Source: Ceratobasidium sp. AG-K (Eukaryota; Basidiomycota; Agaricomycetes; Cantharellales; Ceratobasidiaceae). From it: a stretch of DNA of 64,000 nucleotides. The position numbers and the translations under genes are program-made. Of this stretch, positions 6,881 through 64,000 are shown one piece after another. The DNA lies in the NCBI GenBank assembly GCA_037039685.1, contig JAWNGF010000011.1:496001-560000 (forward strand), read 5' to 3'. The notes below the pieces were generated by a model. It had not been told where the DNA came from, did not search any database, and worked only from the letters and a program-made list of their open reading frames with translations. The first letter of the stretch is position 1; the number at the start of each line of letters is the position of its first letter.

Positions 6881-6900
6881 TCGCCTATTAGCAACATTCT

Positions 6901-9900
6901 ATGAGCAGCACCAGCCAGCAAGAGCAATCTGATTCAGAAGATCTTAGCCAAGACACCATGTCAACAAATCCCGACCCGTACATGAGCCGGCGTCGTTTTG
7001 AAATCGAAAATCTCAAAGAGGATGGATCAAATTACATGGGCTGGAAGACTCGGACAATGCAAGTCTTGCGAATGCAAGGGCTCGATGGAGTCGTCACTGG
7101 CACGGACAAGGAGCCAGATGCCTCAGGCTCGAAGCCGACAGATGTCACGAGCTGGAAGGCCCGAGACCAAGAGGCCCTTACCCAAATCATGATGAGTATC
7201 ACGGACGGCGCGCTGAAGCTTATCAGTCATCACACGTCTTCCAAACCCGCCTGGGATGCTCTTCAAGCACGATGGGAAGGTGCCGGGGTCCAGAGTCTAG
7301 TCTTCCTTGTCGAAAAACTTTTTTCCGACAAGGCATCCGACGACGAGCCTATGGCCGATTTTATTGCCAAACAACGGGCAATTGCTACAAACATCCATAA
7401 CCTAGGTCTTGCACTACCCGAAGCACTCCTAGCACTCATTCTCCTCCATACACTTCCTCCATCTTACGACACCCTTCGTACCGTGGTTGCTGGTAGCACC
7501 ACTCTCGAGAAGTTGACCTTCGACGCGGTTGCCGGGCAGGTCCTCAACGAGGAGCAACGGCTCAACTCGGGCTCCGGTCTACACGCGCTCTATAGCAAGA
7601 AGGCTCCCTCGAAAGGGAAGAACTCGAGGCCAAAGTCTAACCGGCCAGCCTGCAAAAATTGCGGCAAGGGCGGGCATACAAAGGACCAATGCTGGGCAAA
7701 AGGGGGTGATAAAGAGGGTCAGGGGCCAAAGGGAAAGAAAACGGAGTCAAAAAACTCACCGGGAACCAACAATCCTCCATCCGCATCCAACTCCACTCCC
7801 CAAGCTCGTATCGCACACGTCGAAGCTCGATCTGACTCGAACTCGTGGGTTCACAATGGCATCGGCAACATCCACGCTTTTATGGCACGCACGGCTCGCA
7901 GCACAACAGGCTTGAACAACTGGGTCACTGACTCGGGCGCGTCAGAACATATGACACCGAATCAAGCGAATTTTGAAACTTACCGTGCATTCGAACCCCC
8001 GATTTCCGTCAAGACCGCCGATAACTCTCTCATCGAGGTCCTAGGGACCGGTCGCGTCCGCATCGAGCTCCGCGAGGGCCACCAAGCCACACTCTCCAAC
8101 ACCCTTCACGTTCCCGCACTCGGCTGCAACCTCCTGTCCGTTACCGCGCTCCAAAAGGCCGGTAAACGTGTTGTATTTGGCGATCTGGGGGTGTGTCGTA
8201 TTGAGTCGAGGGATGGGGAAATGATTGGCGAGGCCAAGTTGAGGCACGGCCTTTATATCCTACAAGGCCGGACCATCATTCCAAATCCCCGCGCGCTACT
8301 CTCCTACGTTGCTGAGTCAGAATCCGATGAGGAGGAGGAGGCTGAATCCGAGCAGATGATGGCACTTACCGCCAGCGCCGTTGCACGAGCCGACTTATCC
8401 ACCTGGCACCGCCGTCTTGGTCATACGAACACCGAATATATCTTGTCTATGAACCGTGATGAGCGTGTAGAAGGGATGGAAATCATTGGTTCACATACCA
8501 AGCTGAAAACCCCGTGCGAGCCGTGCCTTCGAGGCAAGCAAACCCGCGCCGCATTCCCAAAAACCTCGACCGAACGCAATCGAAAGCCACTCGAACTCAT
8601 TGTATCCGACGTGCACGGCAAAATGGCTGTGGCTACGCATAACGGGCGTGAGTATTTCGCCCCATTTATCGATGCCAAGACCCGATACCTTTGGGTGGCG
8701 GTTATCACTCGAAAGAGCGATGTGCGCGAACATTTCCGCGCGATTCGAGCCCGTGCCGAGCTACAAACCGGCTACAAGGTCCAAATTTTGCGGACTGACG
8801 GGGGTGGCGAGTACATGTCGAACGAGTTCGAGGCCGAGCTGAAAACCGCCGGGATTGAACACCAAGTGACCGAGGCGGATTCGTCTGCGAGTAACGGGAT
8901 CGCCGAGCGAGCGATTCGCTACCTAAACGATATGGAGCGCACGATGCGCGACGAGGCCGAGCTCCCGCCGCAATTCTGGGGGTATGCCGTACTCCACGCG
9001 GCCGAAATCTGGAATTCGACACCGAAAAAGGCACTCGACGGCATGACACCGCACGAGGCGCTTTTTGGCACGAAACCAAACATTGCACGCCTACGCGTAT
9101 TCGGCTGCAAGGCTTTCGCGCGAATCCCTGATAAGGAACGTCAAAAACTCGGCTCACGATCGCTCGAATGCACTTACCTCGGCGTGGCTCCAGGCCGTAA
9201 GGCCCATCTCCTGGTCGATCGAAAAGCGCGCCGCTTTTTCACCTCCCGAGACGTCGTCTTCGATGAGGGGGGTAAATCGCGCCAGCGCGTCGTCATCGAA
9301 GACGCGGACAAGCCTGAAGATGAGGAAATCGTTAGTAGCGAGCCAAACGAGCCGAAAACCGAGAAAACGAACGTACCTGCGCCTCCCAAGGCTGCCACAC
9401 GTCCCGCTGAAGCCGAGGCGATCGAGTCGATCGAGCCCGAGCCTACAGAGCCCGCAGGGCGTCCCAAACGCAACACGCGTCCGCCTACACGCGACGACGA
9501 CCCCCGCTATGCCGTTTCCTCGTACCAACCGGGGACATTCGACCGCTCGAAGCTCCCTGGAGCGAAATCCAAGGTCAGCGCGAAAGGACGGAAGCGAGGG
9601 GGCGACGAGGACGTACCCGATGACGATGCACCCGATCTGCTACACGCGAAGGTCGCGAACCTATTTGTCGACCCGAATTCGTACAACGAGGCGATGAGAC
9701 GCGAAGACGCGCCCGCATGGCTCGAGGCGATGGCCAAGGAAATCGGCATGATCGAGAAAATGCGCACTTGGCGCTTGGTTCCTCGACCAGCCGGGGCGAA
9801 CGTGATTCGCGGACGTTGGGTGTACAAGATAAAACGGGATGCGGACGGGGCAATCGAATCGCACAAGGCCCGCTTCGTCGGCAAGGGATTCGGTCAGATG

Positions 9901-11211
9901 CACGGCGTCGATTACAACGAAACTTACTCAGCGGTCGCCGCGATGCACGCAATCCATCTCCTCCTAGCGCTCGTGGCTCAGTACGACCTCGAACTCCACC
10001 AACTCGACGTTACATCCGCTTTCCTTAACGCGGAGATCGACGAGATCGTTTATATGGAGCAGCCGGAAGGTTTTGTCGTGCCCGGACGCGAGGACGAGGT
10101 CTGCCTTGTCGAAAAAGGGCTTTACGGCCTCAAGCAGTCGCCGCTGATGTGGTATCGACGCCTACGGGACGCATTCAAGTCGATCGGGCTCGTCCGTTGC
10201 AAGTCGGACCCGTGTGTCTTCAAGATTCGCGAGGGCGAGGACTACGCGATCGTCGTGGTTCATGTTGACGACTCGCTCGTGGCTGCCAACTCGGCTCGCT
10301 TTGTCAGCGAGATTAAGCGCCGTATGATGGGTTGTTTCGAAATGCGAGACCTAGGCGAGGCTCGAATGTTTTTGGGCATCGAAATCAATCGAAATCGAGA
10401 CGCGCGTGAGCTCAAAATCAGCCAGAGTCGATATATCAAGGACGTACTGGCTCGATTCGACATGACGGACGTAAATTCCGCCGCCACGCCCATGGAGGAG
10501 CGACTCGAGCTCCCAAAACTCGAGGAAGCGACCGTAGATCGCACGCTATACCAATGCGGCGTCGGATCGCTCATGTACGCAATGCTCGCGACACGTCCCG
10601 AGCTCGCGTTCGTCGTCGGCCAGCTTAGTCAGCATAACGCGGCACCCGGGACCGACCACTGGCTCGCTCTCAAGCGAGCGCTTCGCTATTTGCGGGGCAC
10701 AATCGACCACGGCATCGTATACCGAGGCTCTACAAACGAGCCGGGCGTTCTTTTTGGCTGCGCCGATGCCGATTTCGCGGGGGATAAGCTCACGAGCCGC
10801 TCGACTGGCGGCTGGGCGTTCACACTGGCCGACGGAGCCGTCGCTTGGTCATCCCGTAAGCAGCCGACCATCGCTCTTTCGAGCACCGAGGCCGAGTACA
10901 TCGCCGAATGCGCCGCCATGCGTCACGTGGCTTGGGCGCGCTCGTTCCTCGACGAGCTCGGATTCACGCAATCCGAGCCAACCATCATTCACGTCGATAA
11001 CCAACCGAGCATGGCGATCGCTGAGAAACCGACCCATCACGCGCACACGAAGCACATTCGCGTTCAGTATCATTACACGCGTGAGATGATCGAACTCGGT
11101 GAAGCCAAATTGGTTCACGTGACCACGGACGAGCAAGCCGCCGACATATTCACGAAGTCTCTGGGCCGTGTCAAGTTTCTACGGTTCCGGGAAATGTTGG
11201 GACTCGCTTAG
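6901..11211 (+). CDS. Copia gag-pol polyprotein
   Basis: A single frame of 1,436 residues starts at ATG 6901, 35 nt after the LTR. The domain order is that of Copia. Gag has the CCHC knuckle CKNCGKGGHTKDQC (about residue 250). Aspartic protease follows with WVTDSGASEHM (about 345). Integrase has the H-H-C-C finger HRRLGHTN...CEPC (about 500-540) and acidic residues in SDVHGK, RTDGGGEY and NGIAERA. Reverse transcriptase has VVHVDDSLV (about 1120). RNase H has ADADFAGD, LSSTEAEYIA and ADIFTKSL. There is no frameshift or stop between gag and pol, so a single polyprotein is expected. The reading frame is GC-richer than its AT-rich LTRs. It encodes everything needed for copying through RNA and integrating into DNA. 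Confidence 0.97.
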   Translation: MSSTSQQEQSDSEDLSQDTMSTNPDPYMSRRRFEIENLKEDGSNYMGWKTRTMQVLRMQGLDGVVTGTDKEPDASGSKPTDVTSWKARDQEALTQIMMSITDGALKLISHHTSSKPAWDALQARWEGAGVQSLVFLVEKLFSDKASDDEPMADFIAKQRAIATNIHNLGLALPEALLALILLHTLPPSYDTLRTVVAGSTTLEKLTFDAVAGQVLNEEQRLNSGSGLHALYSKKAPSKGKNSRPKSNRPACKNCGKGGHTKDQCWAKGGDKEGQGPKGKKTESKNSPGTNNPPSASNSTPQARIAHVEARSDSNSWVHNGIGNIHAFMARTARSTTGLNNWVTDSGASEHMTPNQANFETYRAFEPPISVKTADNSLIEVLGTGRVRIELREGHQATLSNTLHVPALGCNLLSVTALQKAGKRVVFGDLGVCRIESRDGEMIGEAKLRHGLYILQGRTIIPNPRALLSYVAESESDEEEEAESEQMMALTASAVARADLSTWHRRLGHTNTEYILSMNRDERVEGMEIIGSHTKLKTPCEPCLRGKQTRAAFPKTSTERNRKPLELIVSDVHGKMAVATHNGREYFAPFIDAKTRYLWVAVITRKSDVREHFRAIRARAELQTGYKVQILRTDGGGEYMSNEFEAELKTAGIEHQVTEADSSASNGIAERAIRYLNDMERTMRDEAELPPQFWGYAVLHAAEIWNSTPKKALDGMTPHEALFGTKPNIARLRVFGCKAFARIPDKERQKLGSRSLECTYLGVAPGRKAHLLVDRKARRFFTSRDVVFDEGGKSRQRVVIEDADKPEDEEIVSSEPNEPKTEKTNVPAPPKAATRPAEAEAIESIEPEPTEPAGRPKRNTRPPTRDDDPRYAVSSYQPGTFDRSKLPGAKSKVSAKGRKRGGDEDVPDDDAPDLLHAKVANLFVDPNSYNEAMRREDAPAWLEAMAKEIGMIEKMRTWRLVPRPAGANVIRGRWVYKIKRDADGAIESHKARFVGKGFGQMHGVDYNETYSAVAAMHAIHLLLALVAQYDLELHQLDVTSAFLNAEIDEIVYMEQPEGFVVPGREDEVCLVEKGLYGLKQSPLMWYRRLRDAFKSIGLVRCKSDPCVFKIREGEDYAIVVVHVDDSLVAANSARFVSEIKRRMMGCFEMRDLGEARMFLGIEINRNRDARELKISQSRYIKDVLARFDMTDVNSAATPMEERLELPKLEEATVDRTLYQCGVGSLMYAMLATRPELAFVVGQLSQHNAAPGTDHWLALKRALRYLRGTIDHGIVYRGSTNEPGVLFGCADADFAGDKLTSRSTGGWAFTLADGAVAWSSRKQPTIALSSTEAEYIAECAAMRHVAWARSFLDELGFTQSEPTIIHVDNQPSMAIAEKPTHHAHTKHIRVQYHYTREMIELGEAKLVHVTTDEQAADIFTKSLGRVKFLRFREMLGLA

Positions 11212-38953: not shown

Positions 38954-40247
38954 TCAGGATGTTGCGGGATGAATAGCCACAAATCCTCCATCCACAGTAA
39001 TGATCTGGCCGTGCACATAATATGATGCGGGCGATGAGAGGAATAACGCCAAACCGCCGATATCAACGTCACTGTTCAAGTGATGAGCCATGGAATCTAG
39101 GAGCGGCCCGATGCGGGTAAACTGGGGAGCAACTTACGTTCCACCACGCTGGAAGGGAATATCGCTTAGTGCCTTTCCGATGGAGCTTGCCTTGTCGCCA
39201 GAAAGAGTTTCTCCCTGGCTATGAGTCATTTCACTGGGGGTAACGCCTACGTTATGAGGGTATTCAGGCCGGGCTGATAACAGATTCGCAAGAAAGAGAC
39301 TTGCCTGGTGCAATCGAGTTGACTCGAACGGAAAAGTTCTTTCGGGCAAATTCAGTTGCAAATATCCTCGTTAGGTGAATAGCTCCAGCTTTACAAATGT
39401 TGTATGCCACCTACAATTACACCAATGTTAGGCAGGGGCGTTGAATGCCTCGTCAATATGTCATACGTACATGGTTCTGCGGGATTCTCAGTTGACCCGA
39501 CAAACTGCTGATGTTGATTATACTCGCGCTCCAAGCTCCACGTGCTTTCGAGCCCTTATTCAGAAGGCCAAGAAACGCTGATGTGACAAAGAATATCGAT
39601 GCGACATCGAGGCCAAATACTCCAGTCCAATCTATAAATCTCAACGAGTAAGCTCAGCAATGGAGGGGATTTTTGCTTTGAAAAAGTACCATTGAATTCT
39701 TCGTTGAAGAGCCCATTTCCGTATGCTTCAGGATCCTTGTTCTCGGGAGCCGAGTCGTCATGAAGGAAGTTTGAATGGGGACCACTACTTCCAGCGCTAC
39801 ATCAATAAGCGTAAGCTGGAGCACTACACTTGGTTCGATTCAACTTGCTTATTGACCAAGATATCCAACTTTCCCTCGTTATCTGAGATAACCTTGACGG
39901 CGTTTTTGATACTTTGTTTGTCAGTCACGTCGAGCTCGATTCTGAATCCTAGTGTAAAAAGAGGGAAGTTACTGATTCACCTGCTACCCACGGGACGATT
40001 TCTCCGGCAGTTTTGGCCGTGTTATCCTTGGCCGAGCTTTCAACCTTTTCGCCCCGACGGCTCCCTATATACACCTTGGCGCCGTTTGCGGCTAGAGCTT
40101 GGGTTATCATCAAACCACTAGTATGCAAATTAGTCTGCATCGCATATAGTATAGATCTAGAGGCGCGTACATGCCTGTCCCACCGCCGGTGACCAGTGCA
40201 ACCCGACCGCTAACATCATATAAGTTCTTTGCAAGTAAGTGGTCCAT
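38954..40247 (-). CDS. Short-chain dehydrogenase/reductase, paralogue A
   Basis: Eight exons from ATG 40247 to the stop at 38954-38956 sum to 915 nt, 304 residues. It starts [26 protein letters not shown], carrying the TGGGTGxG nucleotide-binding loop, then [15 protein letters not shown], the ELDVTD acidic motif and the structural [11 protein letters not shown] carries the catalytic Ser, YNICKAG the catalytic Tyr and Lys, and the end is [13 protein letters not shown]. All key residues of a classical NAD(P)-dependent SDR are present. Two donor sites are GC rather than GT (after exon 3 near 39848 and after exon 6 near 39304); paralogue B has GT at both. Splicing still keeps frame. The substrate is unknown. 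Confidence 0.9.
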
Positions 40248-40288
40248 GATAGAGATATTGAATAACTCGGGTTAGTAGCGTTAGAGGG

Positions 40289-40302
40289 AGTATATATACT
40301 CT
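40289..40302 (-). promoter_or_regulatory. TATA element of dehydrogenase A
   Basis: GAGTATATATACTC, a palindromic TATA-like box, lies about 45-55 bp upstream of the ATG at 40247. Paralogues B and C have A/T boxes at similar distances. Confidence 0.5.
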
Positions 40303-40741
40303 GCATGCTGTAAAATGCCTCGAGTCACAATCAAGGCTATGACATGAATGACGCCAATGATGCATGTCATAGACTCTTGTGACCGGGGTAGCTATATCTA
40401 GTGCACTCCAAGGGCGTCCATCAGGTTCACACACAGCGAATCTATCCTGTTCCGACTGAATCCCGGTTGGTTGAGTGCGAGATCTTGGTTTACGGCTTAG
40501 CATAACATGAACGCGGGCGCACAAGTGCCTTCCAACTCGGTCACAAATATCCAATCCCGATATACAAAATACACCTCACTACCCCTCCTAAACACCCAAC
40601 AGTCCTCCCACAATCCTCCACTCCGAGCTAACCGCCGGGCGTCTACCACGCCCCAATAATCATCGCACCATCACCTGACTGGACAATTATGACACATTCC
40701 TTTTCTCCCCCACCTTGGCCCGACCCACCAACCCTACCATC
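40303..40741. promoter_or_regulatory. Divergent intergenic region between dehydrogenase A and the pyruvate carrier
   Basis: Must contain upstream sequences for both divergent genes. C-rich patches (CTCCTAAACACC, CCACCTTGGCCCG) precede the carrier ATG. No other gene seen. Confidence 0.45.
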
Positions 40742-47402: not shown

Positions 47403-48694
47403 ATGAATCACCTCCTTGCCAAGTCTGTTTACGATGTCGCTGGGCGTGTCGCGCTCGTAACGGGTGGTGGAACTGGAATGTGAGCTCTATCTTGAAAGTT
47501 GGGTTGATATTGACCGGGACGCATTTGAGGTAGCGGTCTTATGATTTCTCGCGCACTTGCCGCTAATGGTGCCAAGGTATATGTCGGGAGTCGAAGGAAC
47601 GAGGTTATTGAGGGCACCGCAGAAGAACACGGTCCTAAGGCAGAGGGCCACCTCATCCCGTGAGCACTTCTAATTTACACACGACTAATACAAGTTGGCT
47701 GACCTGGTCCAGCCTCGAGCTCGACGTAACTGACAAGAAGAGCATCAAAGCTGCTGTTCAAACTATCCAAAAAAATGATGGAAAGTTAGATTTACTATTC
47801 AACAAGTGGGTTAGCTGGCGTAATCTCATCCTACCCCGGTTTCATCTCAACCATTGCTCCAGCGCTGGTCAAAGTGGCCCAAAGTCACCGTTTTTCACCG
47901 ACGAATCTGCACCAGAGAACAAGGACCCGCATACGCTTGGTAATTCGATGTTTGATGCTGAGGATTTCGAAGGTCGGGCCACACGACCCAGCTCTAATTA
48001 TAAGCTGATTCAATATCTACAGAGTGGAAGGACCTTTATACGATCAACACTGCGTCCATCTTTTTCGTTTCGACCGCGTTCCTTGGACTTTTGCATAAGG
48101 CATCGGAGGAGCGTGGTCACTGGAGCGCTGGAATTATCAACACGAGCAGTATTTCTGGGCAGATGAAACGATCTCAGAACCACGTACGTACTCCATGTTC
48201 TCACCCAGCCTTTTCTACGCTGCGGTGGCCTTACTGACCACGGGCCAATAACAGTTCGCATACAACTCGGCGAAAGCCGCAACGATACACCTGACGAAAA
48301 TGTTTTCAACCGAGCTTGCCCTAAAAGGCATTCCGGTTCGAGTCAACTCAATATCTCCAGGTTTGCTATGCCTATTTACCGCCTTTTCTGCACTTATACA
48401 AGCTCAGGAATGTTCCCGAGTGAGATGACCGACCACCAAGGGAAGCACCTGAGTGCTGAAAAGACGGATTCCATTGGTAAAGGCGTCACGGGGGTCCCGA
48501 TGAGACGCGGTGGAACGTAAGTCTCCCTTGGCATCCTACTCGCATGAGGTATATTTATGCATGCCCTTGCTACTAGAGAGACCGATATTGCCGGCGCGGC
48601 TCTTTTCTTAGCCTCACCGGCGTCTTACTATGTTACTGGTCAGACTTTGACTGTAGATGGTGGATACATTGCTACCAATCCTGCGACGGTGTAG
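47403..48694 (+). CDS. Short-chain dehydrogenase/reductase, paralogue C
   Basis: ATG 47403 starts [20 protein letters not shown] followed by [14 protein letters not shown]. It continues [30 protein letters not shown], then [11 protein letters not shown] after an intron. INTSSISG carries Ser and AYNSAKAA carries Tyr and Lys. Then [17 protein letters not shown] and [14 protein letters not shown], stopping at TAG 48692-48694. Same exon layout as A and B, with about 300 residues and all catalytic residues present. Each paralogue is diverged enough to have its own substrate. Tandem with B at a 459-bp spacing. Confidence 0.9.
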
Positions 48695-49381
48695 GCCGCC
48701 AATTGTATTTCAACCCCGATAACGCCATTGAAATAGTACTAGAATGGACTATTCCTTCCGCGTGCAAGTGTCAGCCATAACTGACGACAAATCTGGAAAC
48801 AAATAAAGGCGAATCCGGCGGCACCTTGGGGGAAAAACTGAGTCACGCAAACTGAGCATGGATGTGTTGGTATATAACGACTAGGTTCGACACCTCGAAA
48901 GAACGGGGTATGCCGCGCTTTACAGCGGAAGGCGCGCAAACGCAGAACATAACGAGAATATATTGACCAGGTCGACGTGGCTCCCACACCCAGAACAAGT
49001 GTGATAAATGGAGTACGATCACATACCACATGCCACTACGACATGAGAATCGATCATCAACGGTCCCTGGAGTGTATAAAAGACAAGAACTATGACATGG
49101 CGGCCCATCTCCAACATCTCCTCAATGAAGCTATTGTAGAGACAGAAAGTCATTTGAAGCGGGATGCTGTGTAGCTCTGGGAGTGGGGGAGGAGGGCCAA
49201 GATTGGATTTAGCAATATTTTGAGAGTTGTCTCAGCAGCATTGGATGTTGGATTTGCTTCCCGCTTGCCTGACGAGGTTTTAAAGGCATCGTAATACCAC
49301 AAGTGCGCCAATGTCGTTGGCGATTGGGATGAGGTAACTGCGCATCAGGGATGAGACGAATTAATGACCAGGCGCGGTCGA
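48695..49381. other. Intergenic region left of the DUF6589/helicase element
   Basis: No confident gene. Ends at the outer limit of the left inverted repeat. Confidence 0.5.
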
Positions 49382-49530
49382 GGTTGAGGCTAATTCCTTG
49401 CCTAGAACGTAAGCTCCTTCCAAATGCGGCGGCCTTATGTCATCAGCGGTTGGTCGGCCGCCACGGAGCTTAGTGGAATTGTCCTAGTGAGTACAGGGGG
49501 GTCGGGAACTCACCGTCACACTTGTAAATA
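49382..49530 (+). repeat. Left inverted repeat of the DUF6589/helicase element
   Basis: Matches the reverse complement of 55341-55489. It is strongest over 49461-49529 (about 80 percent by eye, with over 20 consecutive matches around 49480-49500) and weaker towards 49382. Confidence 0.8.
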
Positions 49531-49660
49531 CGTATCGTCGCAATAGTAAATCTTTTTCCCCTTGTCGATTTACTTCGGTCCGCACTTGAGGATAAATGAA
49601 AATGTCGAAGTACGTGGCCAGAAGGGGAGGCTAAATTCCCACAGGAAATTAAAGCCGATG

Positions 49661-52584
49661 CCTAACGCCGACAGCGATTGCCCGCATCAATCCCCCCGTT
49701 GCTCCTCAGCCCGCCACAAGACCACTAACTATATGCTAGGACAAACTCGTTCTAAGACCTCTTCTCTTCGACGCGCGCAATCCGCTCCTCGAAATTCGCA
49801 TTTCCGGGCGAGATCTTCGTCGCCGTCGCCCGAATCGCCACCTCCCGCGCTCTCTCCGGAAGAAACGGTCCGCGACAGCTGCGAGCGTGCACTCGAGTTG
49901 CTGGAGACACTAGGGACGACGTTTGGAGACTGTTTGGTGGCAATCTGCTATGGGGACTCGGCCTTACGGGGTTCCAATCGGGCGATGCGAGCGCGAGCCA
50001 GCATCTACGAGACCGACAACCTTCGAGCTTTCCTCAACAACGCCTATCGACCGTCGTGACCTCCGAGCGGCCACGGAAAACGCCCAGTAGCGGGCTCAAA
50101 GGCAATCCAGCGATTCGCTTCCGCAACCGTCCAGGAAACCTTCAAGAACGAGCTCAGCAAGTTTTCCGAGGGGTAAACTATTGACCAGAGCCAGTTAGCT
50201 AACACAGACTATATGGCGACGATTACATCGACATCCCTGCACGACCAGATCAAGATGACCTGCCCCGAGCTCTACGACATGCTGAGCGGACTGACGGGAA
50301 GCGCGATGGACGAGGATGACGAGGAGGAGGATGAAGACGAGGACGTGGATGAGGCACTAATTACTTATAAGAAACCAAAGAAAAAGCATCCGCATTTTGT
50401 ATGTAGCAGACACTTGAGCCAGTGCGATAGTTAATCGACAGTTAGAACATTGTTTTCCAAGTCACATCCATGGCATTTCGCTTAAATCGTCAGCGAAATG
50501 TTTTACAAAAGTATCTATCGGTCTATGTACAGGCCAAACACACCAACAAGGACATTGTCGACCTCCTTCAGCAGGCTGGAATCACGATGAGCTACTCGTG
50601 GATGCGCCGGACAATATCGAATCTTTCTGTCGACATTCGTAACCAGGCACGCCTCGCTGTACGAGAAAAACCCTATGGTGCTTCACACGATAACATCCGG
50701 GTTACTTATCCCGTAGCGTCTCAGCATGGCGACAACCAGTCGGTTTCAGACAACGGGACGGCAACAACAGTCTACATTTATCCTGACTTGGCCCGAGCAC
50801 TGATGAACCCCGATGATTTTCAGCCGTTTAATCGAACACTCAAGGCACAGCGAATTGCCGGAACAGCCTCACGCCTTGCCTGGAGCGATTTGTTGAATCC
50901 GGTGCACAAGAAGTACAATCGGATCAGCTCCATTCACGACGTCCTCGACCTTTTCCGCATGATCCCCGAGCTTTCATTGTCCGACATATGGAAGTCGGAC
51001 AAGCTTAAACGTCCAACTGGTCCCCAACAACTCCCTCACGGCCCAGAGCATCGGTTGCGTCAATATATGCTCCCGACAACTAACATTGATGAATCTAGCT
51101 ACTCGGGCAACTCGCAGGTTATTCCTTTCGCCCTAAAGTACTTGGGGCTCAACACCGAACCCGAGCGTTCACGCTTGGCACTGGAGCGACTCGTCATCTG
51201 GGTTGGTGATCAAATGACCGCCCAGCATTGCCGACAAGTTAAATCATATCGGCAGGAGAGCATTAATAGTATAAATCACTGTGACCCATTCCTTTTCATC
51301 TATGGAGGCTTTCACGCTCAGATGACACTCGGGCATTCGATTCTTGAAGCATTCCGAGGCGCTAACACAGGGCCAACCTTTGGCGGCAATATTATTCTAC
51401 TCTCACGCACTGGTTTACAAAAAGTCGCCGGCAAGAAGCGCCTGGATTTCCACACTGTTGATGAATTCTTGCTGCACAAAGCCGAGGCTCACTTTCGAGG
51501 ATTGTTTATGCATCTGACTGGCTGCAAAACTGGCGACGACATCAGCGCTTGGATAAAGGGTCATACAGCTAATGATGTCTATCAACTTGCTTCCGATGCT
51601 CTCTGCGGCCATGCTTCATCTGGGGCTCTCGAACTCGAAAAGTCCGATGACGAAATGCGACAGGTAATTATTCAGCGTCAGCGGGACCTATTGCTATATT
51701 ATTCAGTCCGACATGCATACAAGCATGGCGATATTGATCGTATCGAGGCGCTCCTACCGGAGCTGCTATTTTACTTCATTGGTGCAGGCAACAGCAACTA
51801 TGCCAAGGAAGTATTTGAGTTGCTACAACTCCTGATACACGAAACAACGCCAGCTGTCTGGTAAGTGAAAATACCTTTGGTGATTTGGACTATCCTGATG
51901 CATACATCCAAGCAATGTCATCTTGAAGCATGGGCTTGTTGTGAATAAGCTTGGGCATGCTGACAGTTTTTACCCAGTGGACCAGCGCCAGGAGTTCAAT
52001 AATGGTGGCATTCGGGTAAGTAACTTATTGCAGCAATTGTACATACAGAATTGAAGATTTACATGCTAGGATTATGGGTCGCCACCACAGAATGCGTCTT
52101 GGCAACGGTACGGCAAGATCTCAGGCGTTATTCCATTCTTTATGGATGTGGTTGAGCACGTCGAAGGCAATGTAAGAACTGCATATATGCTAGTTACCAT
52201 GCCATTATTGATTGTTCCTAGATTACTGGTATTTGCCACTCACGGATTCACAAGAACCCAAAGCGCAAGAAGGATGTTCAGGCACTGATTGCAGCACATA
52301 CAAAGCATCAATTACATGAAGTGGTCCCTGGTTGAGTGGTCCCAAGGTCCGACAAGCCCAAGGATGCACGCAAGTTTGGTGTCCAAGCTGTTCGCGATTG
52401 TGGTGCATTTGAAAAATACCACAACAAACGCGAAATATATTTCAAGGCAACAACAAACAGGCCAATGTATGAGGATATTGAATCTCCACCCCCATCTCCA
52501 ACCATTCCGCCAACCCATACATCCCGACCTCCTACTCCTGTTTCTTTTGCCCCCGTTTCTTCTTCTCACTCGGGCCTGGATTGA
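49661..52584 (+). pseudogene. DUF6589-type protein with three in-frame stops
   Basis: The clearest exon (50446-51866) gives FRLNRQRNVLQKYLSVYVQA then LVIWVGDQMTAQHCRQVKSY, FIYGGFHAQMTLGHSILEAF, LLSRTGLQKVAGK, FHTVDEFLLHKAEAHFRGLF and LLPELLFYFIGAGNSNYAKE. The GDQ-T...GGFH...GLQK pattern is that of the fungal DUF6589 family, from memory. Upstream coding starts perhaps at 49661 and is acidic before an intron at 50399-50445. Downstream exons follow introns near 51865, 52015 and 52170. Stops interrupt the frame at 50057 (TGA), 50174 (TAA) and 52333 (TGA), yet coding-like sequence continues in the same frame each time. The start is uncertain. Family function is unproven; an RNase-H-like transposase role is inference. 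Confidence 0.7.
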
Positions 52585-55072
52585 ACACCATCCATGTGTA
52601 GTTAGTTGTTGTGCTTGGTCGGCTCGGCGTTTGGTCCTTGGGAGGGGGAAGGGGCATTGACGATGAAGTAGGCGTTGCGTTTGGTGTGATAGGAATAAAT
52701 GTATTGTTAAACTGAGTTGACATGCATGAAGATGATGCAGTTGGCTGTGCTTCTATTGCCCATGGGATTGGGGGAGGTAAACCAGCTGTCGGCGTCGTCG
52801 GGGAAGGCAGGCCAGCGGCAACAGACACAAGCATACAACCAACAGGTCGTGCGCGCATGGGCTGATCAGGTGTCTGGACCAAAAACATATTGAGAGAGCT
52901 TCCAGATGGAAGCACAAAAGAACTCCCTGCAGGGACTGAAGAAGATCCCGCATGATTGACAGGGTGCAACTGCGTCAGCAAGTCTGACTGGATGATCCTC
53001 CTGGCTAGCCTTTGCATTTCCTGTGCTTGGCTTTCTGCTTGCTTTTCTCGAGTGGTCGCTTCAGCTTGAACCTGCTGTTCCTCCTGTGCACGCTGGGTCT
53101 CCTCGGCTTTGACTCGGGCCCTTTCCACTGCTTCAGCAATTCTTTCATCCTCGACACGCTGTAGCTCTGCTAAAAGCGACACAACCTCTAAGCGCCAGTC
53201 ATGCAAGCCCGGCCACTTGATCTCGGGCTTGTCGAAATCACTCAGACTGTCAATTCCCCGGCCCTTGGCGATCCGATCGAGCTCTTTCTGGGTCATGATG
53301 CTGTCCAGGTCGATGTCATACTCCTTGAGTGTCGCCCGGAGCTTTTGCTCTCGCCAAGCTGTCAGCCCTTCGACAAATCGTTTCCTCTCGGCTCCTACCC
53401 GCCCTCTGGCCTGAGCGACAGGTACCTTGTGCTTGAGCTCGTGGTATTCAACATCTTCAACTCGCTCCCGCTGCTGGCTGCTGGCTTCCTGGCGCTGGTC
53501 TTGGTATCTATCTGGCTCGGCCTCCGTACGGCGCTTAAGGCAGTTCTCGCAGCCTTCAACCTCGTAACACGACTCGTGTGCGGGGTTTTGGAATACGTCA
53601 TCAATAACCTTGGTGAGACATCCACCCAAGTATCCAGTAGCAATGTAGAGGGCCATTTCGATTGACAATCCCCGCTTCTTCTGGCCAACGGGCTCTGATT
53701 CCTCTGGCACGCTTGGTTCCACTGCGATTGTCTCGTCTTCGGCATCCTCCTCGACTTTCATCGCTAATAACACCAGGTCGACCTCAATTCCTGCTTCCTT
53801 GCACATGGCTGCCGCTTTCTGGACCATACGCCTGGTAACCATAAGGATGCAGATGCAGACCAGGAAGAAAGCACGCGCTCCACAGCCGGCGCGCTGTAAC
53901 CACGTCTCCAACAACGACGGCGGCAGGAATCCGATTACCTGCATGACTCCAGAAAAGTCGGCACCCTATATGCGATGTAATATAGCAGATATGTCCAATA
54001 TACTTTCGTTTTTCACTCACCATTGTCATAGCCTCCGTGCAAATCATGATCCGGCATTTTCTCTGCTTAAAGCGACGCTCCATGCGCTGCTTGCTGACAT
54101 TGTCTATGAGCGAATGATAGATTGTAATGAGATTGCTGGCTTCCTCGCCAGATAACCCGTAATGCTCCCTCAACTCGTGAGCGATTGCATGTGCGGCATC
54201 GTAACTTTCGACAAAGATGAGTGCTTGCGGCATATCCATAAAGTTTGGTGCGTGAGGGGTGAAGAAACGCCGTATTTCCGAGTAAGATTGTTGACCACCT
54301 TGCATAACGTGTAAGCCATAGCGAAGATTGCGTCGCCAATTGCCGATATTGATAGAAAAATGGTTGCGGTTGATGTGGAGTGAACGAATAACACCCTGTC
54401 GAAGTTTTGGGGTCAAAGTCGCCGTTGCAGCACACATAGGCGAATTTTTGGGATCCGGCATGAACACTCGCATGTCGCCAATTCGCTCATACTCCTTGCG
54501 AAAGCCGGACGCGCCCCACGTCGAAATGCAGTGCGCCTCGTCGACAATCGTGGCGTGCTTCTTGTGAGCGAGCTCAGGCGATGTAATGACCAAACGCAAC
54601 TTATTTGCATCTTTATAGGCTTCTGGAGATGATATAACAACCTTGTACTTTCCCGCTTTGATTTCCTTTGCACCCCAGTAAGTTTTTGCGAATGTATGCG
54701 CTGTAAACGTACTGCGATCAATTCCGGTGTGCATGTCGAAGCATTCACGGCCACGGCAGGGAATCCGGCGTTGGTGTATACCCTGGCCATCTGGTTCTCT
54801 ATCACGTTGAGCGGGGAAACGATCCAGGTAATGGCGTCCTCGCAGAGAACGTGAATAATGATGAAGGCAACCGACTTGCCCGACCCAGTACCCGCCACGC
54901 AGATAACGTCCTGACCCGCGTCGACGGCCAAGCCAAAGTCCACTTGGAAACGGCGTGGAACTATCCCCATACGCCGGTAAGTCTCGAGTCCAACCCAATC
55001 CACACGAGTGAGAGGACGGTTTCGTGCGACCCTGTCGATCTCCTCGGGCGTCGAGCCGAAAACGAACTCCAT
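52532..55072 (-). CDS. RecQ-like SF2 DNA helicase of the putative transposon
   Basis: Three exons: 55072-54713, 54665-54021 and 53965-52532. They total 2,439 nt, 812 residues, with consistent phases and introns of 47 and 55 nt. Motifs in order: Walker A AGTGSGKS, motif Ia IVSPLNVIENQ, DEAH box IVDEAHCISTWG, motif III AATATL, QALIFVESYDAAHAIAHELR, motif V MICTEAMTMGADF and motif VI WLQRAGCGAR. A C-x-C zinc-type segment (CYEVEGCENC) and a long coiled-coil follow, then a Pro/Ser/Thr-rich tail ending KKRGQKKQE. Motif VI has Cys where RecQ enzymes usually have Arg, which could impair ATPase coupling. The 3' end overlaps the convergent DUF6589 gene by 53 bp. Confidence 0.87.
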
Positions 55073-55340
55073 GGCGCGATTCGAGGGCTAATTTTTTTTC
55101 TGTAGCCTTCCACCATCCCCAAGCCCCTTCCCACCAACTTTCAGATGACTAGCTCAATATTTCGAGGAATGACACGGCGACGCAGGTGGGGAAAGAGACA
55201 GAGGTACGTATTTGAAATTACCGTTGTCCTAGGCTCACGCTCGACTCTCCCGCTCTAGATACAGGTCGAGTTTCTTCGTTCTTTTTGCGCGATCCAGTGT
55301 ATATAGTAGATTCAACTAGTTTTTATTATCACTCCGTATT

Positions 55341-55489
55341 CTAATTACAAGTGCGTTGGGCGGTTTCCGACCCCCCCTGTACTCACTAGGACAAGTACAC
55401 CAAGCTCCATGGAAGCGCCGAGCTGACGGATGCAGCCGGTCGTCCCAAAATGGAGCTTGGTTCCAGGCAAGCTAATTCCAACCAGGGTT
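55341..55489 (-). repeat. Right inverted repeat of the DUF6589/helicase element
   Basis: Reverse complement of the left repeat. It lies about 270 bp upstream of the helicase start. Confidence 0.8.
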
Positions 55490-57489
55490 GGGTAGGATCC
55501 GCCCCTAAGCCCCGGACGTGGAATTGGGATAATTGGTCCGAGCATAGGCCGGCGCATACAACTTAGGCTTTGCTCGGCTCAGAAGCTCCTCACCCTGAAG
55601 ATGTTCCTCCTCCGTGCTTCTTACCGGTGGGATACGGACTGACAGATCATCCTTGCAAAGATCTAGGCGCGCGTTTTACGAACGGGGCTAGCTATTCCCT
55701 ACAGAGCTGATTCTGAAGCACATGGCCAGCTCGGCAGAATAGGCGTGCCACCCCTCACTTTGCATCAAGCTATAGACCCTCATAAACTCTTATATTTCAG
55801 CTTTTCTCCTCCACGCCGCGACGCCCCACTGCTGCTCTGCCTTTCTTCTAGTTCCACTCATAACGGTGGCCTCACTGTGTTCGAATACTTGTCCCTACTA
55901 GACCTACCCAAGCAAAGCACCCGTGACGCACGACATGGCTGTTATGGCTCGTACAGTCATAAACGTATCCCCAATTCCAATGCCATTTCCTCAGGTTGTT
56001 GCGCATGAGCCTCCGGTGCCCGTCATAACTGTTCAGCAAACTCCACCTGCACACGACTTGAATGGACGCCCACAGGTACAACAGCTACAATACATCTATG
56101 ATGATAACCGTAGCTTATTGGTTATTCCTAGCCTTCCCCCCTCCTCGGAGCCCTGTATGGGCGTCCATAAGTTGTCTTCGCCATGAACTAGACCTCCTTT
56201 ACGACGCAGAAATTTAAAGTCGGCTGTGAATATTCTAGCTTTCCCGCAACCCAGGTTTTCAGTTCTATGCCGCTCAGCTCCCCGATATTATAACCGCTTG
56301 TTATATTCTATCTCCGTGCTGAAATGACTCGAGTGTCCCGTGTAATTTGCTCCTGATTCATGCATATATGCCACATAGTTAACAATCGTGAGCGATTCCT
56401 CAGATCCATAGCCTCGGATTCGTGCGTTAGTTCTCAATATTGATGGCACGAGATGTGAGAGTAACCAGCTGTGCTACAACCCCCCCCCCCATCCCCTTAT
56501 CTGCTGACCGTATCGGCTCCTTCGGCCATGGGAAATTTCATACATCAGTCAGGCTTTTCACCCGGACCATCGAGCGGTGTTATCCAAGCTTCCTCGACTT
56601 CGGTCCGTGTTAGCTCAGCAAAAACCGCACGAGCTAGTTGAGACACGCAAGAGCTTGTTTATGCAAACGAGCCTCAAGTAGCGCGCAGTCCTGGATTTTA
56701 CTGGGAATTAGAGCATGCAGCAACTTTTTACAGATGAATACAGCGGCTAATCAAATTCCCTGCCAGGTGCCATTCCAGATCTACCGTAAGCTTTGCGTCG
56801 CCCCAAATTCGACATACCCATGGCCTGCACGCCGATCTAATCGCTTCGAACAAGTACCACCGGGCGGATCTTGAGACACACCAACTGGGTCGATGTACGA
56901 TATTCAGCAGAACGCCCGTTCTTCAAGCCTGGGAACCTTATCAACTTGACCGAAAATATCATCCACATTTCCACCCGACACTGCTATTGGGTACTAGTTT
57001 GTCCGCAGAACACGTTCCACCTCATTCGCCATGTTGTTTGAGCCCCTTCATTTCTCTTATAGCCCAAAGTAACACCTTGACGTGGTTAGGCCAAACTAAG
57101 GATATATAAGCGCTCGTCGAATGCTATCACTCTGTTTGACCGAACCTGCTTGAATCGAGGAGTCTTGTCGCTCCGATGGGCCCCAGTAGCAATCTCATGC
57201 GGTAAATTCCGTGGGCAAACAACCAAACAACGGCATGAAGTGTGAAATTGGAGTCTACAGGATTTTCTGAAGGTGGTAAATTATAAGAGAGGGAATACCC
57301 CAGTTGAGTGAAGCAATTTCGTGGTTACATCCCGCCATTGGAAGCCTCTGATTTGAGCTCCCAGCGGCGACGTAAGAAATCTTGGTCTCTGTATGCGCTC
57401 GGGTTAAATAACAACCCTTGCTAAACCCGGTCCACAACGTGTATCAGTCCATATGTTGTGTATCTTGGGACACTACAGTATCTCGGGTA
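55490..57489. other. Intergenic region with a coding-like fragment
   Basis: A proline-rich open frame at 55923-56186 (VSPIPMPFPQVVAHEPPVPV then QQTPPAHDLNGRPQ) could be a first exon ending at GTACAA near 56076. A similar exon-like block is at 63197-63315. A 55-bp stretch near 56552-56606 matches 63749-63803 at about 80 percent by eye. A C-run lies near 56481-56489. The rest shows nothing recognisable. Confidence 0.35.
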
Positions 57490-62955: not shown

Positions 62956-64000
62956 TTGTCAGATTTCCGTGCGGTGTATCCCGATACCAGCTAACGAGTT
63001 TGGAACCTGAACTAAGCCCCTATTATAAGTCCAATTGGAATATCAAACAACCGACTGGCACACGATAGCTATATAAAAGCGCTCTGACCACACAACCCAG
63101 GCAACCTCCCTCTCCATATCGTACATTCATCTTGGATTAAATCCAAGTCATCCGTTTAGACTGAGAATTTACAACATATAATACGGCTCTCACGAACGAA
63201 TCACCACCACAAGCCGCATTAGTACCGTTTCCCCCCCTTGCGCCCGACCCTCCACCGCCGGCTGTACCAAATCAAAACATCCTTCCTACACATAGCGAAG
63301 CTCAATCCTCACAGGTAAAGCATGCACGTTGGTACCACGATGCTCCCAGCTAACGGATCGCTTCGAGCCCTCTTCACTACATCAATCTTTGAATGGGCTT
63401 CCAGGACTCGGAGTAGGCTCTCCTCGGGGCTAAGTCAATGCCAAGGGCGGCGAAGGAGACCCGGATCGTTTACAGAAACTATCCTCTTTCTACTAAGCCA
63501 GTTTTCCGTTCAATTTTATTCATTCAGCAAGCTTCGTGTTGATTGATGCCATTGCTGCCCTGAAGGTTTTTTGCCACGCAAATACTACTTGAGAACCCTG
63601 TGTATGGTAGCCTGTGGTCTATCCTAATCCTATATGTTCACTGTACTGCCTTGAGGACCGTGACCTTTCACGAAGCGGGGTCATCTTTGTTTCTCGGCCT
63701 CGTCGAGGCTCATACGGGCCATAAGACAGCTTCGACCCCTAAATCGAGCTTTTCACCCGGACCACAGAGCCGTGCTATCCGAATTTCCTCGGCTCCGAGC
63801 CGTTTCAATGGAAAACCATGACGACGTTTGTCAGTTGGGCGCCGGGGTCGATCAATATCGATTAGCCCACCACTACAAATTTACTGATTTACTGTCATGT
63901 TCCTTGACATGCATACGCTCGGAGTTTATTTAATTGCTTAGACCCAAATACCCTACGGAGTTCATTGACTCCTAGCGCGAAACGTCCAGCATCGCGTATG
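62956..64000. other. Right-edge region with coding-like fragment
   Basis: A plus-strand exon-like block at 63197-63315 (ESPPQAALVPFPPLAPDPPP then PTHSEAQSSQ before GTAAAG) resembles the proline-rich block at 55923-56076. The stretch 63749-63803 matches 56552-56606. No complete gene is resolved before the window ends. Confidence 0.35.

Follow-up and report, generated by a model that had tools for sequence, protein, structure and literature searches.

The window analysed here comprises 64,000 nucleotides of Ceratobasidium sp. AG-K (contig JAWNGF010000011.1, positions 496,001 to 560,000; C11:496001-560000 in the 53.6-Mb, 17-contig genome that was searched). At window positions 49398-55470 we recognize a DNA transposon with terminal inverted repeats, a 9-bp target-site duplication and two convergent genes. 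One encodes a DUF6589 protein, which is likely a transposase of the aspartate-aspartate-glutamate (DDE) type, and the other a RecQ-family helicase, which likely assists it. The element likely belongs to the AcademH lineage, which has already been described, and we put the probability of this reading as a whole at roughly 0.8. An earlier note made from the sequence alone had called the element mobile, a claim borne out by exact tips, the target duplication and a diverged empty paralogous site.

The element is 6,073 bases long, has the tips TTGCC...GGCAA and lies inside an exact 9-bp duplication (Table 1). The sequence GCTAATTCC stands directly outside both tips; at equal base frequencies, the chance of a 9-bp match at a given place is about 4e-6. 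The inverted repeats of about 150 bp claimed in the earlier note are real, their arms being the top two of 14 inverted pairs in an 8-kb scan (49461-49508 with 55365-55412, 48 nt, 85%; 49496-49530 with 55342-55376, 35 nt, 77%), but the outer ends given for them, 49382 and 55489, overshot the tips by 16 and 19 bases. A 2.5-kb copy on contig C9 has the same tips, lacks the middle of the element and is flanked by a different 9-bp duplication, GGGGGTCCG. Its match spans 49398 to 55471, one base beyond the right tip, at which point the duplication of the C9 copy likewise starts with G.

A locus on the same contig, C11:667.4k, carries TCTAATTCC once and without the element. The left flank of the window element resembles this locus up to the last base of the flank, and when both flanks were joined through one copy of the target, the alignment crossed the junction into the locus at 76-78% identity. 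The right side of this alignment extends over only about 39 bases and has a gap of 6 bases next to the junction, and the right flank searched alone gave no match at C11:667.4k. When 5000 stretches were drawn at random from the fetched loci, among which copies of the flank itself are present, 2 scored at least as high as the right side anchored at the junction. C11:667.4k is a diverged paralogous empty site, not an allele.

A sister copy at C11:283-304k has its flanks and target in common with the window element. It was rejected as an independent insertion and left out of the insertion count since the flanks match too, which indicates a single insertion that was copied together with its surroundings in a segmental duplication. 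A large inverted duplication within the contig includes the window: window positions 40000-40400, 48001-57000 and 63000-63400 have matching stretches, found at C11:312.8k (100%), around C11:283-304k (flanks above 99%) and at C11:276.9k (88%). The sister copy also contains a 14.5-kb insert (stretch L035 position 3657 to L036 position 8218, C11:286656-301118), possibly a retrotransposon, with a 6-bp repeat at its borders (window 52074-52079).

As the earlier note had claimed, the two genes converge, with DUF6589 on the plus strand and the helicase on the minus strand. The DUF6589-like motifs reported there correspond to a match to PF20231 (E 2.8e-60). Structures predicted for two divergent DUF6589 clades match DDE transposases (Hermes, P element, ISCth4, RAG and Transib), the closest solved folds being those of hAT (Hermes) and the P element. 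In DUF6589 alignments an aspartate at the GDQ motif, a second aspartate upstream and a glutamate downstream are conserved in the places expected for DDE. These predictions, obtained by the structural modelling that the earlier note had advised, make it very likely that DUF6589 is the transposase, in line with the role of recombinase proposed for it. For the third catalytic position, glutamate 557 was weighed and rejected; it is conserved in the clade of the window protein (30 of 31 rows) and not in the divergent clades, and E716 is preferred for this reason. The histidine after the second aspartate is invariant (16 of 16 rows). Three positions ahead of it, 11 rows have G, three have S, one has C and one has Q; 'GxxH' as a family signature would be true of only 11 of the 16, and therefore we claim only the histidine.

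For the helicase, removal of introns of 47 and 55 nt gave exactly the 812 residues that had been claimed, with GTGSGKS and DEAH motifs. Pieces of the protein match the RecQ-family model TIGR00614 (E 3.1e-23 and 2.1e-6), under its curated full-length cut-off, and one piece matches RECQ5, WRN, BLM and bacterial RecQ chains in PDB. An apparent frameshift near 54740, where two frames overlap, was rejected: comparison with a related element on contig C17 pointed to the 47-nt intron instead, and the spliced frame is open over 812 codons. Motif VI reads QRAGCGAR in the window copy and QRAGRAGR in the C17 relative, a difference because of which the window helicase may be impaired.

The gene pair recurs. 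A search for the DUF6589 family returned ten rows at nine distinct loci, two rows falling in the window element. At seven of the nine, RecQ-like sequence lies beside DUF6589 in convergent orientation (C11 twice, C17, C2, C1, C7:519k and C7:168k), as the earlier note had suggested might be found. The two C7 loci are damaged. At C7:519k the helicase is adjacent in its second half only, and a match to the first half lies about 13 kb upstream; C7:168k is a fragment. No helicase was found within 9.9 kb at C7:1222k and C8:738k, nor at four stretches (L041-L044) that had come up in the protein and DNA searches alone and hold fragments of DUF6589 or isolated ends. Among 40 scored candidates in the genome, 39 stretches match the RecQ model, and many of these are exons or other helicases; close pairing at seven loci appears to exceed chance expectation.

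Several of these relatives have ends of their own. The C17 element, which carries both genes, has a DUF6589 protein 49% identical to that of the window, tips TTGCC...GGCAA and an 8-bp duplication, AGCATGAG. A distant relative at C2:6749046-6754856 (L045 547-6357; DUF6589 24% identical) retains an open DUF6589 frame of 667 aa, tips TAGACT...AGTCTA and a 9-bp duplication, GGTCGTTCA; because its 207-bp inverted repeats are 100% identical, it probably moved more recently than the other such elements that were found here, as judged from its sequence. An element of 2.3 kb on C7 shares 90-bp ends with the C2 element (90-91%) and has GTCTCGACC on both sides. On C1 the gene pair lies between 67-bp inverted repeats (85%), and no target duplication was seen there. 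Among the five independent insertions with both ends and a duplication, the window element included, four have 9 bp and one has 8 bp. This count omits ends found alone, where a single tip was located (C3, C5, C10, C2:4158k, C8, C2:1796k and C1), and no pair of ends was established at C7:519k, C7:168k or C7:1222k. Some single ends form pairs (C10:152130-152302 with C2:4158358-4158529, C8:2379565 with C2:1796456, and C1:331332 with C1:6642695) whose outer 25 flank bases are the same or differ at one position, which points to further duplicated segments.

The earlier note had proposed a candidate undescribed class of transposon. This was not supported, since AcademH is already described as encoding a helicase, making duplications of 9-10 bp and occurring in Basidiomycota, and RecQ has also been cited for KolobokH and for Academ (PMC3627910, excerpt). 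In the published excerpts, AcademH duplications are 9 or 10 bp and those of AcademX 3 or 4 bp, a difference related to helicase and nuclease (PMC10045372), and AcademH is placed in Basidiomycota, Ascomycota and Mucoromycota at low copy number (PMC10799480). The elements described here resemble AcademH in having a helicase gene beside the transposase gene, in 9-bp duplications at four of five insertions with duplications (a sixth element, on C1, has none), in a DDD/E transposase, predicted here from fold matches and the conserved D, D and E, in low copy number and in their Basidiomycota relatives, Ceratobasidium and Rhizoctonia proteins being the closest named ones in the homology search. In this comparison by description no difference from AcademH was established, apart from the one duplication of 8 bp. 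On these described features the element likely belongs to AcademH. AcademX would then be of the same superfamily and differs, in the excerpt, by its 3-4 bp duplications and nuclease, against 8-9 bp and a RecQ helicase here.

It is possible, though unlikely, that DUF6589 instead defines a separate, undescribed DDE superfamily that recruited RecQ independently of AcademH and is akin to Academ only through the general DDE fold. Such a superfamily would be marked by the invariant histidine after the second aspartate, a long helical stretch inserted ahead of the third catalytic residue and an independently captured convergent RecQ gene, and would have spread in mushroom-forming fungi, where its helicase-assisted cut-and-paste transposons would form a class not yet recognised. 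In its favour, the AcademH comparison is by description and not by sequence, DUF6589 is named nowhere in the literature searched, and in a Pfam scan all 16 members matched DUF6589, the sole other match being a marginal one to DUF4271 (E 0.033). Against it, the kind of helicase, the length of the duplications and the host phylum all agree with AcademH as the excerpts describe it.

Other known systems were compared as well. Although hAT (Hermes) and the P element provide the closest solved folds, none of the 16 members has a Pfam match to either, and hAT duplications are usually 8 bp (families with 5, 6 and 7 bp are known), whereas 9 bp was found at four of five insertions here and 8 bp at one. 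The 16 members likewise gave no Pfam match to the transposase domains of Plavaka and KDZ; Plavaka duplications are 2-3 bp and those of Zisupton 8 bp. There is no Pfam MULE match, although 9-bp duplications and long inverted repeats would fit MuDR/MULE and ISCth4 is among the fold matches. Helitrons also carry a helicase, together with an HUH nuclease, in contrast to the inverted-repeat ends, target duplications and RecQ-family helicase seen here.

We consider it improbable that the two genes are cargo or host genes lying between the inverted repeats of a non-autonomous element whose transposase is encoded elsewhere. Similarity of fold proves no function and the window copy is broken, as this explanation would allow, but beyond the window and its sister the pair occurs at five more loci: on C17 and C2 it has both ends and duplications, on C1 inverted repeats alone, and at two loci on C7 it is damaged. 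The open-frame list contains no other frame longer than 170 aa in the element. The earlier note had named as fatal to its proposal that the repeats be missing from other such pairs or that the pair be single-copy host genes in conserved synteny; neither is the case here, and the pair recurs with inverted repeats. Least credible of all is KolobokH, the fungal Kolobok element described in an excerpt (PMC9587614) as encoding RecQ downstream of the transposase domain and as found only in fungi so far, for although the invariant histidine here occupies the place of the C/DxxH that Kolobok shares with four other superfamilies, the residue three before it is mostly G, Kolobok duplications are TTAA while none of the five here (8-9 bp) is, and the helicase here has a gene of its own, on the strand opposite the transposase gene.

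To return to the AcademH-like transposon in the window, this copy is probably inactive, because its transposase gene contains in-frame stops at 50057 and 50174. Near 52333 there is another stop, premature compared with the protein P0033, yet the relative P0003 ends at the same place. The sister copy has the stop at 50174 and lacks that at 50057. When the element was compared with its sister (49398-55470 against L035-L037), 71 transitions and 6 transversions were found in 6,079 aligned bases, and 62 of the transitions were at CpG. In the flanks (against L002 and L010) there were 8 transitions in 2,927 bases, one of them at CpG. Because the CpG changes are concentrated in the element, they suggest methylation-linked deamination of a silenced transposon. 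The observed/expected CpG ratio is 1.00 in the element and 1.01 in the window; the element is not depleted, and any such decay would therefore be recent.

In the mechanism that we propose, the DUF6589 protein would bind the inverted repeats and pair both ends, excise the element and join it to a target cut with a 9-bp stagger, after which gap repair would leave the 9-bp duplication. The helicase may aid transposition by melting or resolving DNA at the ends or at the repaired gap. The ends, the duplication, the diverged empty site and the recurrence of the gene pair were observed directly; the DDE fold and triad are predicted, and the steps of transposition and the part of the helicase in them are proposed.

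Table 1. Features of the element, in window coordinates
Feature	Position	Strand	Basis
Left target-site duplication, GCTAATTCC	49389-49397	.	Tip alignment; one near-identical copy, TCTAATTCC, at the empty paralogous site
Left terminal inverted repeat, tip TTGCCTAGAAC	49398-49530	+	Inverted-repeat scan, tip alignment; C9 match starts at 49398
DUF6589 gene (predicted DDE transposase), spliced, with internal stops; both limits approximate	49814-52585	+	Open frames, Pfam, homology alignments
Main DUF6589 exon, 472-aa open frame	50446-51864	+	HDNIRV from 50686 and WVGDQMT from 51199 (two predicted catalytic D); YGGFH block from 51301
Following DUF6589 exon (tblastn limits)	51917-52018	+	QRQEFNN from 51983, with predicted catalytic E
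RecQ-family helicase gene, 812 aa, long C-terminal extension	52534-55072	-	Spliced translation, profile matches; introns 54666-54712 (47 nt) and 53966-54020 (55 nt)
Right terminal inverted repeat, tip TTGCCTGGAAC on the minus strand	55342-55470	-	Inverted-repeat scan, tip alignment; C9 match
Right target-site duplication, GCTAATTCC	55471-55479	.	Tip alignment

Two other regions of the window resemble mobile elements. A 1439-aa open frame at 6892-11211 has the gag, integrase and reverse transcriptase domains of a Copia-type retrotransposon, and a 379-aa frame at 3293-4432 matches PF18759, the Plavaka transposase model, over its C-terminal positions 179-325 out of 325 (E 7.5e-56).

Pfam lists DUF6589 as a family of 'unknown function'; apart from Ceratobasidium and Rhizoctonia, its members come from ten or more named genera of Agaricomycetes, and most are annotated as hypothetical or DUF6589 domain-containing proteins. 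The association of DUF6589 with transposon ends, target duplications and a predicted DDE fold gives a likely role to a widespread family of unknown function, and annotators could then treat DUF6589 genes as transposon genes. With its identical ends and paired helicase, the C2 element turns the role of a RecQ helicase in a cut-and-paste transposon into a testable question. If the interpretation of the CpG changes is true, targeted silencing would have left a natural record within one duplicated segment, in the form of changes concentrated in the element beside nearly clean flanks.
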